Shown piece by piece: positions 31,913 through 37,344 of a stretch of DNA of 64,000 nt. The stretch's first letter is position 1; every line of letters begins with the position of its first letter. Location: the NCBI GenBank assembly GCA_029101305.1, contig JAQXQS010000090.1, forward strand, positions 29,881-93,880, in the 5' to 3' direction. Source of the stretch: Clostridia bacterium (GTDB lineage Bacteria > Bacillota > Clostridia > Lachnospirales > Lachnospiraceae). Below the pieces are notes generated by a model. That model worked only from the letters and a program-made list of their open reading frames with translations, searched no databases and was not told where the DNA came from. The position numbers and the translations under genes were made by a program.

Positions 31913-33088
31913 TTATTTCTCATACTGAGCCATATATTTGTTTACACAGCGCTTGATTCTGTCAACCGGATTCAGAAGATGGCTTACAGACATATCATGA
32001 TTCAGAGTATCGATGATCAGTGCAATGTATTTGCTCATATCACAGGAAATGTAATATGGTTTTGCAAGAAGCTCATCAGACTGGTATACCATGTTTGTAG
32101 TAAGAAGCCTGTCAAATACGCCTGCGGCATATGCTTCATCAAACTTTTTAAGATTATCTGTAAACAGACCGAAAGTGGAGCAGAGGAAAATTCTGCCGGC
32201 ACCTCTTTCCTTCAAAAGAGAAGCAATCTTAAGGATAGTATCTCCGGAAGAAATCATATCGTCAATAAGGATCATATCCTTGCCTGCTACGTTTGGTCCA
32301 AGGAACTCATAAGCAGCGATAGGGTGCCTGCCATCTACATTCTTGGAATAATCAAGACGTTTGTAATACATACCCATGTCAACACCGAGAATATTAGCAA
32401 GATAAATAGCACGGCTCATGCTGCCCTCATCCGGGCTGATGATCATGAAGTGCTCATTGTCAATATGAAGTCCCTGCTCATGATTCAGAAGAGCCTTGAT
32501 AAACTGATAGGAAGGCTGGACTGTCTCGAATCCATGAAGCGGTGTAGCATTCTGGATCTGTGGATCATGTGCGTCGAAAGTGATAATGTTTTCAACACCC
32601 ATATTGATCAGTTCATGAAGGGCGGTCGCGCAGTCAAGAGACTCTCTTCCGATACGCTTGCTCTGACGGCCTTCATAAAGATATGGCATAATTACATTCA
32701 CACGGCGGGCTTTTCCACCGATCGCTGCAATCACACGCTTCAGATCCTGGTAGTGATCATCAGGAGACATCAGGTTCGTATATTTGCCGATAGGGTAAGA
32801 GATATTATAGTTACATACATCTACAAGAATATAAATATCATCACCCCGGACTGATTCAGTGATCACGCATTTGCCTTCACCGGAACCGAAACGCGGGTTC
32901 TGAACTTTGATCGTGTAGGAATCTCTTTTGTATCCTTCAAAGGCGAAAGAATCTGATTCTGAATGCTCACGCTCCTTACGCCACCGAACGAGCCATTCAT
33001 CGACCTTCTGCCCAAGGCTCTTGCAGCTTTCCAAAGGAACTAATCCCAGTCTTCCAACGGGAAGTGTAGTCAATTCTTCTTGTGCCAT
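31913..33088 (-). CDS. prs: Ribose-phosphate diphosphokinase (PRPP synthetase)
   Basis: A 391-residue enzyme making PRPP from ribose-5-phosphate and ATP for nucleotide, His and Trp synthesis. Seen: VIMPYLYEGRQSKR (ATP-binding loop), the VENIITFDAHDPQIQ metal site, and the PRPP loop ILIDDMISSGDT. It is longer than the usual ~315 residues, with an extra N-terminal region, a form I recall in clostridia. It lies 3 nt from dnaI. Confidence 0.92.
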   Translation of the reverse strand: MAQEELTTLPVGRLGLVPLESCKSLGQKVDEWLVRWRKEREHSESDSFAFEGYKRDSYTIKVQNPRFGSGEGKCVITESVRGDDIYILVDVCNYNISYPIGKYTNLMSPDDHYQDLKRVIAAIGGKARRVNVIMPYLYEGRQSKRIGRESLDCATALHELINMGVENIITFDAHDPQIQNATPLHGFETVQPSYQFIKALLNHEQGLHIDNEHFMIISPDEGSMSRAIYLANILGVDMGMYYKRLDYSKNVDGRHPIAAYEFLGPNVAGKDMILIDDMISSGDTILKIASLLKERGAGRIFLCSTFGLFTDNLKKFDEAYAAGVFDRLLTTNMVYQSDELLAKPYYISCDMSKYIALIIDTLNHDMSVSHLLNPVDRIKRCVNKYMAQYEK

Positions 33089-33091
33089 TCT

Positions 33092-34078
33092 TTACTTTCC
33101 TCCTAAAAAAATTTTCTGAATGCGGATATCTTTTCCCACAAGCTTGGTCATCTGATAGTTGCTGGCAATACGGGAAAAGGTTCTCTCAGAATAAGTTGCT
33201 GAGAAATCTTCCAGTTTCAGGTTTGTGGAAATGATTGTAGATTTCTTGCGCATGATCCGCTCATTGATACACAGGAAAAGCTGTGAGGATACGAAGCTGT
33301 TAGTAAGCTCTGTACCCAGATCATCAATGATCAGCAGGTCACAGTCAAAAATCGGTTCATCATCAGGGGCATCACCGCCTCTGGAAAAAGCAGAGCTTGC
33401 AAGAAAATCAAAAAGCTCAAATGCAGAAAAATACAGTACACAATGTGCACTGTCCAGAAGATCATGAGCAATGCAGTGGGAAAGAAAAGTCTTACCCACG
33501 CCTGTATCGCCATAGAAAAAAAGATTCTGGAAGGAATTATCAAAGTCAGCAATAAAGTCCTTCGCAAGATGATAAGCACGGCGCGCAGTCTCACGTTCGG
33601 TCAGTCCCGTTGAATCATTTGTTATTGTATCAGAATAAAAGTCAAATGAAAAGTGGTCAAAGTTCTCTTTTTCAAGAATTTCTTTCAAATTTGACTGTGT
33701 GTACAGAAGTTCTATCTCAGCTTTCTTGAAACAGGAGCACTTCTGGCTGCCGATATAGCCGGTATCCTGGCAAAGCGGGCAGGTATATGTCATCTCCAGA
33801 TAATCAGCCGGATAGCCGGCTGACAACAAAAGAGCAGTGCGCTCCTGGGAAAGCAGTGCAATATCATTGCGTAGATCCTCTATACCAGTTTCCTGGCGGC
33901 TGATCAGGGCGCGTGCTTTCCTCGCACTTAATGTGGCAACCTCCTCATCAATTTCCCTGAGACGTGGAAGCTTCTCATAGGCCTCAGTCTGATGCTCCTC
34001 CTGCCGACGCCGGTTGCGGACCTGCCGGCGGTTATATTCACGCATGATCGTATCATATTGGTAATTCTGTAAGGGCAT
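33092..34078 (-). CDS. dnaI: DnaI/DnaC-like helicase loader ATPase
   Basis: A 328-residue AAA+ protein. An N-terminal coil is followed by a Cys cluster (CPLCQDTGYIGSQKCSC, about residues 99-115), then Walker A FFYGDTGVGKTFLSH near 190 and Walker B LLIIDDLGTE near 253. It loads replicative helicase with DnaD and DnaB. Its position directly after dnaD supports the assignment over an IstB-type transposition helper. Confidence 0.87.
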   Translation of the reverse strand: MPLQNYQYDTIMREYNRRQVRNRRRQEEHQTEAYEKLPRLREIDEEVATLSARKARALISRQETGIEDLRNDIALLSQERTALLLSAGYPADYLEMTYTCPLCQDTGYIGSQKCSCFKKAEIELLYTQSNLKEILEKENFDHFSFDFYSDTITNDSTGLTERETARRAYHLAKDFIADFDNSFQNLFFYGDTGVGKTFLSHCIAHDLLDSAHCVLYFSAFELFDFLASSAFSRGGDAPDDEPIFDCDLLIIDDLGTELTNSFVSSQLFLCINERIMRKKSTIISTNLKLEDFSATYSERTFSRIASNYQMTKLVGKDIRIQKIFLGGK

Positions 34079-34127: not shown

Positions 34128-35204
34128 TTAATTCGGTTTATTGAGCAGTTTCTTCTCATATTCTGCAAAATCATAATCTCTCTGATGGAAATTATTAAAA
34201 CGGTTAGGTGCAGCAGATTTTTGCTGTGCTGGTTTACTAACAGACTTTTCCAGCTTGCGCTTCTGGTGCTGGGCATCCTGGAGACGTACATCCTCCAGGG
34301 TACGGATATTTTTATCCTTCCAGCGCTGCAAAATCTTATCTGCATATGGGAAACTTGGCTGTCCGGTCTGCAGGACAGTACGGGAGCAGGCTTCCTGAAT
34401 CAGCTCCATTGTAAAGCCATAATCCTTCGTCCAGGTATTGATCAGGGAAATTTCCACATCGGAAGGATTACGGTTCGTGATGCCCATGGCTTTCAGAACG
34501 GAAAAATATTCTTTGCTGTAGCGGGATGTGGAATCCTTGGCCATCTCAACTGTGGTGATTCCTTCTTCCCTCCAGGCCATAGCCACTGTCTCTATGTAAC
34601 GGATGCTGCGGTGGTCACGTCCCACACAGTATTCAATCAGATAATCGATCAGATCCACGGACATATGCAGTTCATCATAGAAAAACAGAATCTTGCGTGT
34701 CTCTGTAGGCGTGAGGGTTTTACCAAGGTACTGCTCGGCAATATAAAGAAGTTGGATGATATCCTCGTTCTGCTTCAGCTCTTTCACCCGGTCCGGAGTA
34801 AGGGGCTTGACCTCGGAAAGAGGACTGGTGGAAGGAACGTTAGAAACAGATTCAGCCGCCGAATCAGCTTCATCTGTCTGCTGCGGTGCCACTGCGGCAA
34901 GGACGTCATCCTCATTCCAGGGCGTCCTTAAAGTAATCCCTGCCAGAGCATTATCTTCATATGAAAGTGTGACCAGATTTTCGCTCTCCCAGTATTTTAG
35001 CGCGCGGAGAATGTCCCCCTCTGTGCAGAACAGAGAGTCTGCCATCTGGGAAAGCCCAAAAGCAGCGCCTGGTCTGCCCAGCATGCGAAGCAGGTAAATA
35101 TATACTTTTACAAATTCACCGTTAGCCTTTGGCATAAAACGGTCAATAAAAATATTGGATAAAACAGTGGCATCATTAAGCCCTGTGCTATGTAACTTGA
35201 TCAT
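34128..35204 (-). CDS. dnaD: DnaD-domain primosome protein
   Basis: A 358-residue protein starting at 35204, which follows AAAGGAG; an upstream in-frame start at 35243 has none. A winged-helix N-terminal domain (KVYIYLLRMLGRPGAAF) is followed by a DnaD/DnaB2 domain (LTPTETRKILFFYDELHMSVDLIDYLIEYC) and a second one (DVEISLINTWTKDYGFTMELIQEAC). It remodels DNA at origins and stalled forks and recruits the DnaI-helicase complex. DnaA boxes crowd its upstream region. Confidence 0.87.
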   Translation of the reverse strand: MIKLHSTGLNDATVLSNIFIDRFMPKANGEFVKVYIYLLRMLGRPGAAFGLSQMADSLFCTEGDILRALKYWESENLVTLSYEDNALAGITLRTPWNEDDVLAAVAPQQTDEADSAAESVSNVPSTSPLSEVKPLTPDRVKELKQNEDIIQLLYIAEQYLGKTLTPTETRKILFFYDELHMSVDLIDYLIEYCVGRDHRSIRYIETVAMAWREEGITTVEMAKDSTSRYSKEYFSVLKAMGITNRNPSDVEISLINTWTKDYGFTMELIQEACSRTVLQTGQPSFPYADKILQRWKDKNIRTLEDVRLQDAQHQKRKLEKSVSKPAQQKSAAPNRFNNFHQRDYDFAEYEKKLLNKPN

Positions 35205-35305
35205 GGGGATTCTCCTTTGGGACATCCAGTTTGATGCTTGCATTATAGCACAACATTTTTTAAAAGAGAATAGCAGATTTTGGGCGGTGGATATCAGCGA
35301 CTGTG

Positions 35306-35557
35306 TGTGGATTACAATGTGGATAATGTGGATAATGTGGAAACCCAGTTGCGCATAATATTTATGGGAAACCAGGAAAATGCAGAAAATTAAAGAAAAA
35401 CTGTGATTTTTGTCGAGCGGTGTCGTAATATTATGTTAAGCACTTTATACACATAAGAATCCACATGGAACCTGATGTGAAAATGTGCATAAGCATGTGG
35501 ATAATGTGGATAACTTCCAAAATACTTGTATTTACAAGCTTGTGTGTGTGTGGATAA
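35306..35557. promoter_or_regulatory. DnaA-box cluster upstream of dnaD
   Basis: TGTGGATAA (complement of TTATCCACA) occurs exactly at 35318-35326, 35327-35335, 35496-35504, 35505-35513 and 35549-35557. TGTGCATAA is at 35484-35492, TTATACACA at 35445-35453, and a one-mismatch TGTGGATTA at 35306-35314. Two pairs are back-to-back 9-mers. All but one point the same way. The array fills the dnaD upstream region. Confidence 0.85.
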
Positions 35558-35599: not shown

Positions 35600-35645
35600 A
35601 AAAACGGCGGCTGTCAGGCTTTAAAAAGCCATGACAGTCGCCGAT
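35600..35645 (-). terminator. Terminator of murC
   Basis: CGGCGGCTGTCA pairs with TGACAGTCGCCG around an inner GGCTTT/AAAGCC hairpin (35606-35643). A T-run follows on the minus strand. This isolates murC from dnaD. Confidence 0.85.
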
Positions 35646-35734: not shown

Positions 35735-37114
35735 TTATTTGCCAAGCAGCTGTTCACCGATTTTTACAACATCGCCAGCACCCATTGTGATCAGAAGGTC
35801 TCCTGTTTCGCAATTATTCAGCAGGAAATTTTCGATTTCATCAAAAGTAGGGAAATACTCACATGGAGTACCCAGTTCCTGGATTCTTGCCTGTAGATCC
35901 TGTGAGGAGATTCCCAGATTATCAGTCTCTCTTGCTGCATAGATATCAGCCAGTACTACATGGTCTGCCAGCTTAAGAGCCTGTGCAAACTCCGGAAGCA
36001 ATGCCTTGGTACGTGTGTAGGTGTGAGGCTGGAATACGCACCACAGTTTCTTGTGAGGATAATTGTGGGCAGCATTTAAGGTGGCCTGGATCTCAGTTGG
36101 ATGATGGGCATAATCATCTACGATGGTAACGCCTGCTACTTCCCCTTTATATTGGAAACGACGGTCTGTACCAGTAAAGCTTCCCAGTCCTTTGACAATT
36201 GTTTCGTCCGGAATCTGAAGAAGTCTGGCCAGTGCGATCGCTGCCAGTGCATTGGAAACATTGTGGCTGCCCGGAACCTTCAGATAAAAGCTTCCGGTCT
36301 TTTTGCCATCCTTCAGAACTGTGAAGGAAGCATGTCCATATTTGTCATAAGTAATATCGGCAGCCTGATACTGAGCGTCATGCTCAAGGCCGTATGTAAT
36401 CACCTCACATGGAAGATCTTTGATAATGTCTTCATAGTGAGGAGTATCTGCGTTGATGATCAGGGCTCCGTCAGCAGGAAGCAGCTGGGCAAATTTGCGG
36501 AAAGAATGACGGATGTCATCGATGTCCTTAAAAAAGTCCAGATGATCCGCATCAATGTTTAAGATGACACTGATCTTTGGGAAAAAGCTTAAAAAGCTGT
36601 TGGTATACTCGCAGGCTTCTGTGATAAAGGTTTCAGACTGGCCTACGCGGATGTTTCCACCAATGGAAGGGAGGATTCCGCCAACACTGATGGTGGGATC
36701 TGCGCCTGCTTCCAGAAGAATCTGGGAAATCATGGAAGTAGTGGTTGTTTTTCCATGGGTACCGGAGACTGCGATCGGAGTGTCGTAGTTACGCATGATC
36801 TGGCCAAGAAGCTGTGCCCTGGTAAGCATTGGAATGCCTTTTTCCACTGCACAGGCATACTCCGGGTTGTCTGGATGAATGGCTGCAGTGTAAACAACAA
36901 GCTCTACATCATCGGTAATATTGGAAGCACGCTGTCCGTAGAAAATACGTGCGCCTTTCTTCGTAAGGGAATCGGTAAGGGGGCTCTCTTTGGAATCGGA
37001 GCCGGAAACCTTGAAATCTTCTCCAAGAAGAATCTCAGCCAGTCCACTCATGCTGATTCCGCCAATACCGATAAAATGGATATGAAGCGGTTTATGAAAG
37101 TCTATCTGATACAT
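35735..37114 (-). CDS. murC: UDP-N-acetylmuramate--L-alanine ligase
   Basis: A 459-residue Mur ligase adding the first amino acid to UDP-MurNAc. Seen: HIHFIGIGGISMSGLAEIL at the N-terminus, ATP loop VSGTHGKTTTTSM near 115, ITEACEYTNSFLSF, and the C-terminal VDDYAHHPTEI. Start at 37114 follows AAGGAG; the frame open to 37237 adds 41 residues unlike the family. Monocistronic, with its own terminator. Confidence 0.95.
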   Translation of the reverse strand: MYQIDFHKPLHIHFIGIGGISMSGLAEILLGEDFKVSGSDSKESPLTDSLTKKGARIFYGQRASNITDDVELVVYTAAIHPDNPEYACAVEKGIPMLTRAQLLGQIMRNYDTPIAVSGTHGKTTTTSMISQILLEAGADPTISVGGILPSIGGNIRVGQSETFITEACEYTNSFLSFFPKISVILNIDADHLDFFKDIDDIRHSFRKFAQLLPADGALIINADTPHYEDIIKDLPCEVITYGLEHDAQYQAADITYDKYGHASFTVLKDGKKTGSFYLKVPGSHNVSNALAAIALARLLQIPDETIVKGLGSFTGTDRRFQYKGEVAGVTIVDDYAHHPTEIQATLNAAHNYPHKKLWCVFQPHTYTRTKALLPEFAQALKLADHVVLADIYAARETDNLGISSQDLQARIQELGTPCEYFPTFDEIENFLLNNCETGDLLITMGAGDVVKIGEQLLGK

Positions 37115-37344
37115 AATAATCTCCTTAATCAAAGTGATGTTTTTATCATTATTTTCATTTATTATACCCCGAACCGGGAAAAATGCAAAGTATTTCTTTG
37201 GGCGAGCTATATGTGAAACAAAGTATTTCTTTAACACTGTACAAAATGAATAAAAAATAACAAAGGCACTTTAAAGTTTGTCGAAAAAACATGTACAATA
37301 ACGATAAAAAAAGTAAAATGACGCCAATTATTTTGTAAAAAATG

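Follow-up and report, generated by a model that had tools for sequence, protein, structure and literature searches.

A conserved array of DnaA boxes with periodic spacing upstream of dnaD in Lachnospirales, a candidate control region of helicase-loader genes

Gene organization and DnaA boxes at the dnaD locus

The window analysed here is a 64-kb stretch of contig C90, which belongs to a 3.52-Mb assembly in 226 contigs. On its minus strand, murC (35735-37117, the gene ending at 35735) is followed by dnaD, which encodes a DnaB_2/DnaD-domain protein (34128-35204), by a dnaI-like gene for a helicase-loader ATPase (33092-34078) and, 3 nt downstream of dnaI, by a prs-like gene of the ribose-phosphate pyrophosphokinase family (31913-33088), which probably shares an operon with dnaD-dnaI. 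The dnaI-like gene was assigned by its profile match: its product, an IstB/DnaA-type AAA+ protein, passes NF005304 ("ATP-binding protein") and falls far under the cut-off of the DnaI model NF006505.

A dense array of DnaA boxes lies between murC and dnaD, and all boxes named in the original prediction were found in place: five exact copies of TGTGGATAA (at 35318, 35327, 35496, 35505 and 35549), TGTGCATAA at 35484, TTATACACA at 35445 and the single-mismatch box TGTGGATTA at 35306-35314, with the head-to-tail pairs 35318/35327 and 35496/35505 lacking any spacer. Read along the minus strand, the array begins with an outer box TTATCCACA (35549-35557), which is common to a subset of the genus and lies 44 nt before the distal ('left') tandem pair TTATCCACA-TTATCCACA (35496-35513), itself kept in relatives. 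A third distal box, TTATGCACA (35484-35492), follows 3 nt past the left pair and has the form TTAT[AG]CACA in many genus members. An inverted box on the plus strand, TTATACACA (35445-35453), was found by the box scan here and at genus loci. Next comes the promoter-side ('right') tandem group GTTTCCACA-TTATCCACA-TTATCCACA (35318-35344), also present in relatives, whose first member (35336-35344, minus strand) is an additional box with two mismatches; reading of the sequence then gives the single-mismatch box TAATCCACA (35306-35314, minus strand). The distance from the start of the left pair to the right group is 169 nt.

Seven matches to TTWTNCACA fall within 240 nt (35318-35557), and the other eight of the 15 in the window are scattered over the rest of the 64 kb. 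Shuffled sequences gave an expectation of 8.9 per 64 kb, or 0.033 per 240 nt, and the box density has a Poisson P of ~9e-15 before correction for the choice of place. The boxes are therefore crowded beyond chance, as expected of a DnaA-box cluster.

Promoter and terminator elements flanking the array

The array had originally been bounded by the dnaD start, and the listed dnaD ORF begins at 35243. Translation more probably starts at the ATG at 35204, because an extended -10 element (TGCTATAAT, 35242-35250, minus strand) that is conserved in relatives sits by that listed position; the nearest exact box begins 114 nt ahead of this ATG. A weak -35 (TTCTCT, 35265-35270, minus strand) lies 17 nt before the -10, and its commonest versions in relatives are TTCTCA, TTTTCT and TTCTCT. 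These elements constitute the putative dnaD promoter, which was absent from a consensus promoter scan of the window, and transcription would start near 35235 on the minus strand. The start of the right pair is 88 nt from the -10, and its centre would be ~91 bp before the transcription start. Among 65 family loci, 62 had an extended -10 score of at least 11 (14% of shuffled tails) and 38 a perfect score (0.9% of shuffled tails).

Behind murC, the terminator of the original prediction was recovered as a strong hairpin at about 35605-35643 on the minus strand (-25.2 kcal/mol, z -6.7) with a T-run, a putative terminator that was absent from a simple terminator scan of the window. In the window a further hairpin, ATCCACATG...CATGTGGAT (35459-35502, minus strand, fold z -2.5), encloses the second left box. 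The left pair was followed by an inverted TGTGGA[TA] within 70 nt in 60 of 65 two-group family loci, and the latter by a T-run (at least six T in 10 nt) in 56 of the 65; since these elements come after it, the left pair apparently has a second role within the murC terminator. The tandem pair starts 0-8 nt past the estimated murC stop in 24/46 genus loci and 49/69 named loci having both. Such an arrangement might mean that the boxes are a by-product of the terminator, the repeated TTATCCACA being a stem and not a protein site. We consider this very improbable: neither the right group nor the first left box is in the stem, a stem requires complementarity but not one invariant 9-mer, and the window has a separate strong hairpin behind murC with the boxes still there.

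The spacer between the two groups contains other motifs. A motif at 35430-35439 on the minus strand, TTAACATAAT, is enriched in family spacers as TTTACATAA (27/65; shuffled 0.3), and TTCGACA was found in 9/65 (shuffled 0.5). Because of this enrichment, more than one protein may bind. TTCGACA resembles a Spo0A (0A) box. An input from Spo0A was dropped as unsupported, not disproved: the motif also occurs at L166 of genome G195 (96% complete) and at L167 of G077 (78%), and neither genome had a Spo0A_C match, with the reservation that drafts can miss genes. The spo0A search covered 79 of the 109 family-set relatives, 13 of which lacked a Spo0A_C match. The enriched motifs TTTACATAA and TTCGACA could also speak for a different regulator that recognises a TTATCCACA-like site and controls dnaD. 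This is improbable, as the 9-mer fits the DnaA consensus TTWTNCACA given in the accessible text of PMC7561715 and this genome has clusters of the same 9-mers at dnaA.

Two further sequences were observed. The inverted repeat GCTTGTAAATACAAGT (35524-35539) may be an operator of some regulator, and CCTTG..ACTGG-like versions of it lie between the right group and the start codon in 10 of 65 relatives (shuffled 1.1). GGTTTCCCATAA is located at 35362-35373 on the minus strand; GTT.C..ATAA occurs upstream of dnaD in 26/45 genus loci and GGTT.C..ATAA in 4/65 family spacers.

Conservation of the array upstream of dnaD

Four sets of relatives were searched by one common rule, a tandem TTATCCACA pair with at most two mismatches in 18 positions within 600 nt upstream of dnaD. 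The pair was present in 47 of 59 genus loci (dnaD having been found in 59 of 60 genomes), in 71 of 80 named loci (the best 80 of 582, overlapping with the genus set), in 92 of the 110 genomes of the family set (a single genome for each genus, taken from the best-scoring end of 247 dnaD-bearing genomes) and, outside the family but within the order, at 32 of 40 loci (40 of 125; 20/20 of the best-scoring and 12/20 of the lower-ranked ones taken). The reversed pattern, used as control, gave no match in any of the four sets at this stringency and one match, in the family set, at three mismatches. In other orders of the class, none of 25 loci (L301-L325, the best 25 of 138) had the tandem pair; several of these were matched by the C-terminal part of DnaD only, so the 1,100-1,500 nt scanned includes part of the gene. 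A comparison of the dnaD upstream region across Lachnospiraceae had been proposed with the original prediction, and boxes not kept in relatives had been named as a refuting outcome. This refutation clearly fails, since a large part of the order retains the array at dnaD.

At least four TTATNCACA were found within 700 nt upstream of dnaD in 47/59 genus loci, and a frequent layout in the genus consists of a pair, a third box 3 nt on, an inverted box 39 nt further and a second pair. In the family set, the mean number of TTATNCACA in 450 nt was 2.65 (reversed control 0.03), and 15 of the 110 genomes had none. Twelve genus members had at most three boxes, with a murC-dnaD gap of no more than 110 nt in nine and of 149, 275 and 287 nt in the others, compared with at least 301 nt in 46 array-bearing members; three of the 12 retained a perfect extended -10. 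Array loss thus usually accompanies gap loss, in which case transcription of dnaD may come from murC.

Genome-wide distribution of the array

A whole-genome search for a tandem-triple pattern (at most two mismatches) in 250 genomes of the family, each from a different genus, found it in 79 (control 0). We compared its locations with the positions of dnaD and inspected doubtful loci. In 69 of the 79 genomes it lies just upstream of dnaD and in one more, G114, it immediately follows murC at the end of a contig, giving 70/79. Two genomes (G073 and G241) have it upstream of dnaA, and four (G079, G120, G184 and G257) elsewhere or without an identified neighbour; the other three of the 79 are G067, G089 and G147, described below.

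Several individual sites were also noted, at which gene names of the hpf, secA, mnmE and pseudouridine synthase type rest on reading of the protein start. Tandem arrays precede an hpf-like gene (ribosome hibernation factor) in L347 (G066), L349 (G242), L351 (G107) and L359 (G147), and three of these four loci also have a secA-like gene next to it; the site is a second one besides that at dnaD in G066, G107 and G242 and is the one counted for G147. Tandem-triples within an mnmE/trmE-like ORF were found in L348 (G195, a second site) and L352 (G067) at differing positions of the ORF and are perhaps chance matches; trmE appears as a DnaA-bound locus of B. subtilis in the accessible part of PMC4447404. 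G282 has a second site inside a pseudouridine synthase-like ORF. In G089 (L376) the array abuts murC and dnaD is 1.7 kb away, which makes this genome a natural test case.

Spacing and helical phasing

Two tandem groups could be paired (at most three mismatches) in 65 of the 110 family genomes. The left-right distances were 77, 86-88, 97-101, 120-122, 130-131, 134-136, 140-146, 150-158, 165-169, 176 and 187-189 nt, with a best period of 11.2 bp (R 0.63; R 0.26 at 10.5); the values of 134-136 fall off the ~11-bp steps. When the 37 distinct values were compared with 20,000 random draws, the period being scanned, no draw was equally periodic, under a null that ignores relatedness; the period was weaker (R 0.52) if the last rather than the first frame of a group was chosen. 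In other families of the order, the distance was 161-166 nt in 21 of 22 loci.

Distances from the right group to the -10 were 56-57, 67-68, 75-78, 85-88, 93-99, 113, 117, 128, 139-140 and once 175 nt. Measured to the best extended -10, they had a period of 10.1-10.6 (R 0.78-0.79; 64 of 65 family loci), and the control distance from the -10 to the ATG in the same loci ranged from 13 to 250 nt with no period (R 0.22). The -10 cut of this first test, 10 of 13, is loose and is passed by 54% of shuffled tails. With a stricter promoter cut, 96 family loci having at least one group gave a period of 10.8 (R 0.61; R 0.55 at 10.5), and R at 10.5 was 0.79 for 48 genus loci and 0.76 for 73 named loci, two sets that overlap. 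The scan-corrected P for distinct distances was 0.014, and a value of 0.0003 was reached only after the distances had been limited post hoc to 150 nt. No clear promoter phasing was seen in the order set (34 loci, up to eight of them from the family of the window), where R was 0.25 at 10.5 and the best period 12.1.

Relatedness was controlled by tree-disjoint pairs on a DnaD tree with 169 leaves. Between such pairs, the shifts in both DnaA distances tend towards multiples of ~11 and the control distance is flat. The left-right distance changed in 11 of 63 pairs (V-test u 2.26 at 11.2 and 0.97 at 10.5) and the distance from the right group to the -10 in 24 of 62 (u 2.17 at 10.5, 2.55 at 11 and 0.09 at 10); a period of 12 gives 2.1-2.3 for both. 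With relatedness removed, the phasing signal is modest and points in the expected direction.

A spacer filled with low-affinity DnaA sites at 11-bp pitch was considered and rejected, since 11 did not stand out in the base composition by phase: periods of 10, 12 and 13 score at least as high as 11 when counted from the left anchor, and 10 and 11 are about equal from the right anchor. As such an array is unsupported, we read the steps as helical phasing. The array keeps its position relative to promoter and gene, as would a DnaA-regulated promoter, to a modest degree after tree correction.

Position relative to the replication origin

In the whole assembly TTATNCACA occurs 224 times (reversed control 102). 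The dnaA gene is on contig C37, with boxes upstream of dnaA and between dnaA and a dnaN-like ORF. GC skew, checked within the 64-kb window, is positive in all 31 profile steps on both sides of the array. In line with the original prediction, the array is thus not the main origin, since the skew does not flip and dnaA, with box clusters of its own, lies on another contig; it is neither next to dnaA/dnaN nor at a GC-skew switch. An origin-like site, which had also been offered as an option, is disfavoured on the same grounds. Two box clusters and an AT-rich interval would resemble a bipartite oriC, but a secondary or back-up origin is hardly credible with the skew positive over 64 kb, dnaA flanked by box clusters on a different contig and the array phased with a promoter.

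Where a single contig carries both dnaA and dnaD, these genes are separated by about 334, 353, 422, 446, 652 and 708 kb within the genus (six of eight genomes examined) and by about 180, 251, 254, 287, 518, 667 and 830 kb in other genera and families (seven of eight), the values of 422, 254 and 830 kb assuming a circular contig. With dnaA taken as oriC, this amounts to about 4-23% of the genome in the 13 genomes. With separations this variable, the array does not lie at dnaA and does not seem to keep a constant distance from it.

These distances bear on the idea that the array is a DnaA-titration or recycling site, acting by dosage or distance from oriC and not through dnaD. DnaA-box clusters of B. 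subtilis are described as inhibitory via sequestration of DnaA in the accessible text of PMC11019786, that of PMC4585315 has E. coli datA/DARS keeping their box spacings and relative distance from oriC, and dnaD remains within the above range of dnaA. On the other hand, the array is at dnaD in 70 of the 79 genomes with the tandem-triple pattern, it is phased with the dnaD promoter, and its relative distance to dnaA varies about five-fold. Titration in place of control is therefore rather unlikely, and it may be an effect added to control of dnaD.

A proposed role in the regulation of dnaD-dnaI

Among the roles first suggested for the array, control of primosome supply is the best-supported option, with the array conserved at dnaD and rotationally phased with a promoter-like element. 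We propose, with a probability of about 0.68, that the array serves the dnaD-dnaI operon as its upstream regulatory region, at which DnaA bound cooperatively to the two groups joins and contacts RNA polymerase. From the boxes, their conservation, the promoter-like element and the periodicity of the spacing, we infer DnaA binding, a loop or wrap and the contact with polymerase. A DnaA complex on the promoter is favoured over plain titration because the distances are phased, including that to the -10. Because the pairs keep the same face to each other and the nearer pair to the promoter, a looping or wrapping complex that touches polymerase would be the best explanation. In such a mechanism, DnaA would bind cooperatively to two tandem groups of high-affinity boxes on matching helix faces, and the two complexes would be joined via looping or wrapping of the intervening DNA (for most genus members ~165 bp). 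With its centre ~90 bp before the putative start, the promoter-side group would offer DnaA to RNA polymerase sitting at a promoter that has an extended -10 and a weak -35, and transcription of the helicase-loader genes would follow the amount or the ATP state of free DnaA.

Class I activators bind at positions of about -61, -72, -82 and -92. As the group is placed like such activators and no box of the window overlaps the promoter, activation is slightly preferred (about 60:40) over repression, for which that contact or loop might also serve. Four of 65 family loci had one more box within 60 nt past the right group. Thirteen of 110 family genomes lack a tandem group; a stronger, compensating -35 was sought in them and none was seen, so compensation lends activation no support. 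DnaA acts as activator or repressor elsewhere (PMC8203912, in its accessible part).

DnaD is reported to inhibit cooperative binding of DnaA in B. subtilis, as cited in the accessible part of PMC4447404, and for this reason one may conjecture a feedback loop between DnaA and DnaD. An order-wide form of it, in which a DnaA loop or filament of whole-turn length reads active DnaA and sets loader supply, and DnaD reopens the loop, so that the initiator is balanced against the loader in every cell cycle, is a tentative and less than likely extension.

The sequence patterns suggest that DnaA may directly set the supply of its own partner proteins. If helicase-loader supply were coupled to the initiator, it would be a simple and testable link in an order of abundant gut commensals, for which the natural spacing variants, in steps of about one helix turn, resemble a phasing experiment run by evolution. 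If true, the transcriptional role of DnaA would extend to the primosome, with a clean case for telling regulation from titration.

Comparison with known DnaA-dependent systems

No report of DnaA boxes at dnaD was found in the open-licence literature, searched by titles and abstract openings, and a query with six terms of a 2026 review with frequent mention of dnaD (PMC13220808) gave no hit. DnaA regulation being known, we take the dnaD target and the phased two-group architecture as new; DnaA as a transcription factor is not. The DnaA-regulated promoters of B. subtilis given in the accessible parts of PMC4447404 and PMC8203912 are sda, ywlC, ywcI-sacT, vpr, yyzF-yyd, trmE and dnaA-dnaN. They resemble the present case in having box clusters beside promoters at which DnaA is an activator or repressor, but dnaD is not named in those parts as a DnaA-bound or regulated locus (the word does not occur in PMC8203912), nor do they describe the order-wide, helix-phased spacing seen here. 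In Caulobacter crescentus, predicted DnaA boxes are located upstream of the helicase gene dnaB, a member of the DnaA regulon, and dnaQ is also under DnaA control (PMC8203912). Both systems thus have boxes upstream of a gene for helicase function, with the difference that it is the helicase itself in Caulobacter and its loader here, and that the accessible text describes no paired, phased array.

Like E. coli datA/DARS and the B. subtilis clusters, as far as covered by the accessible text of PMC4585315 and PMC11019786, the dnaD array is a non-origin array, and the spacing in E. coli is conserved as well; unlike them, it seems to be tied to one operon and its promoter and not to a fixed relative distance from oriC. 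The bipartite oriC of Firmicutes also has two DnaA-box clusters, which are thought to be brought together (PMC7561715, accessible part), whereas the array at dnaD, with no dnaA/dnaN and no skew switch, is phased with a promoter.
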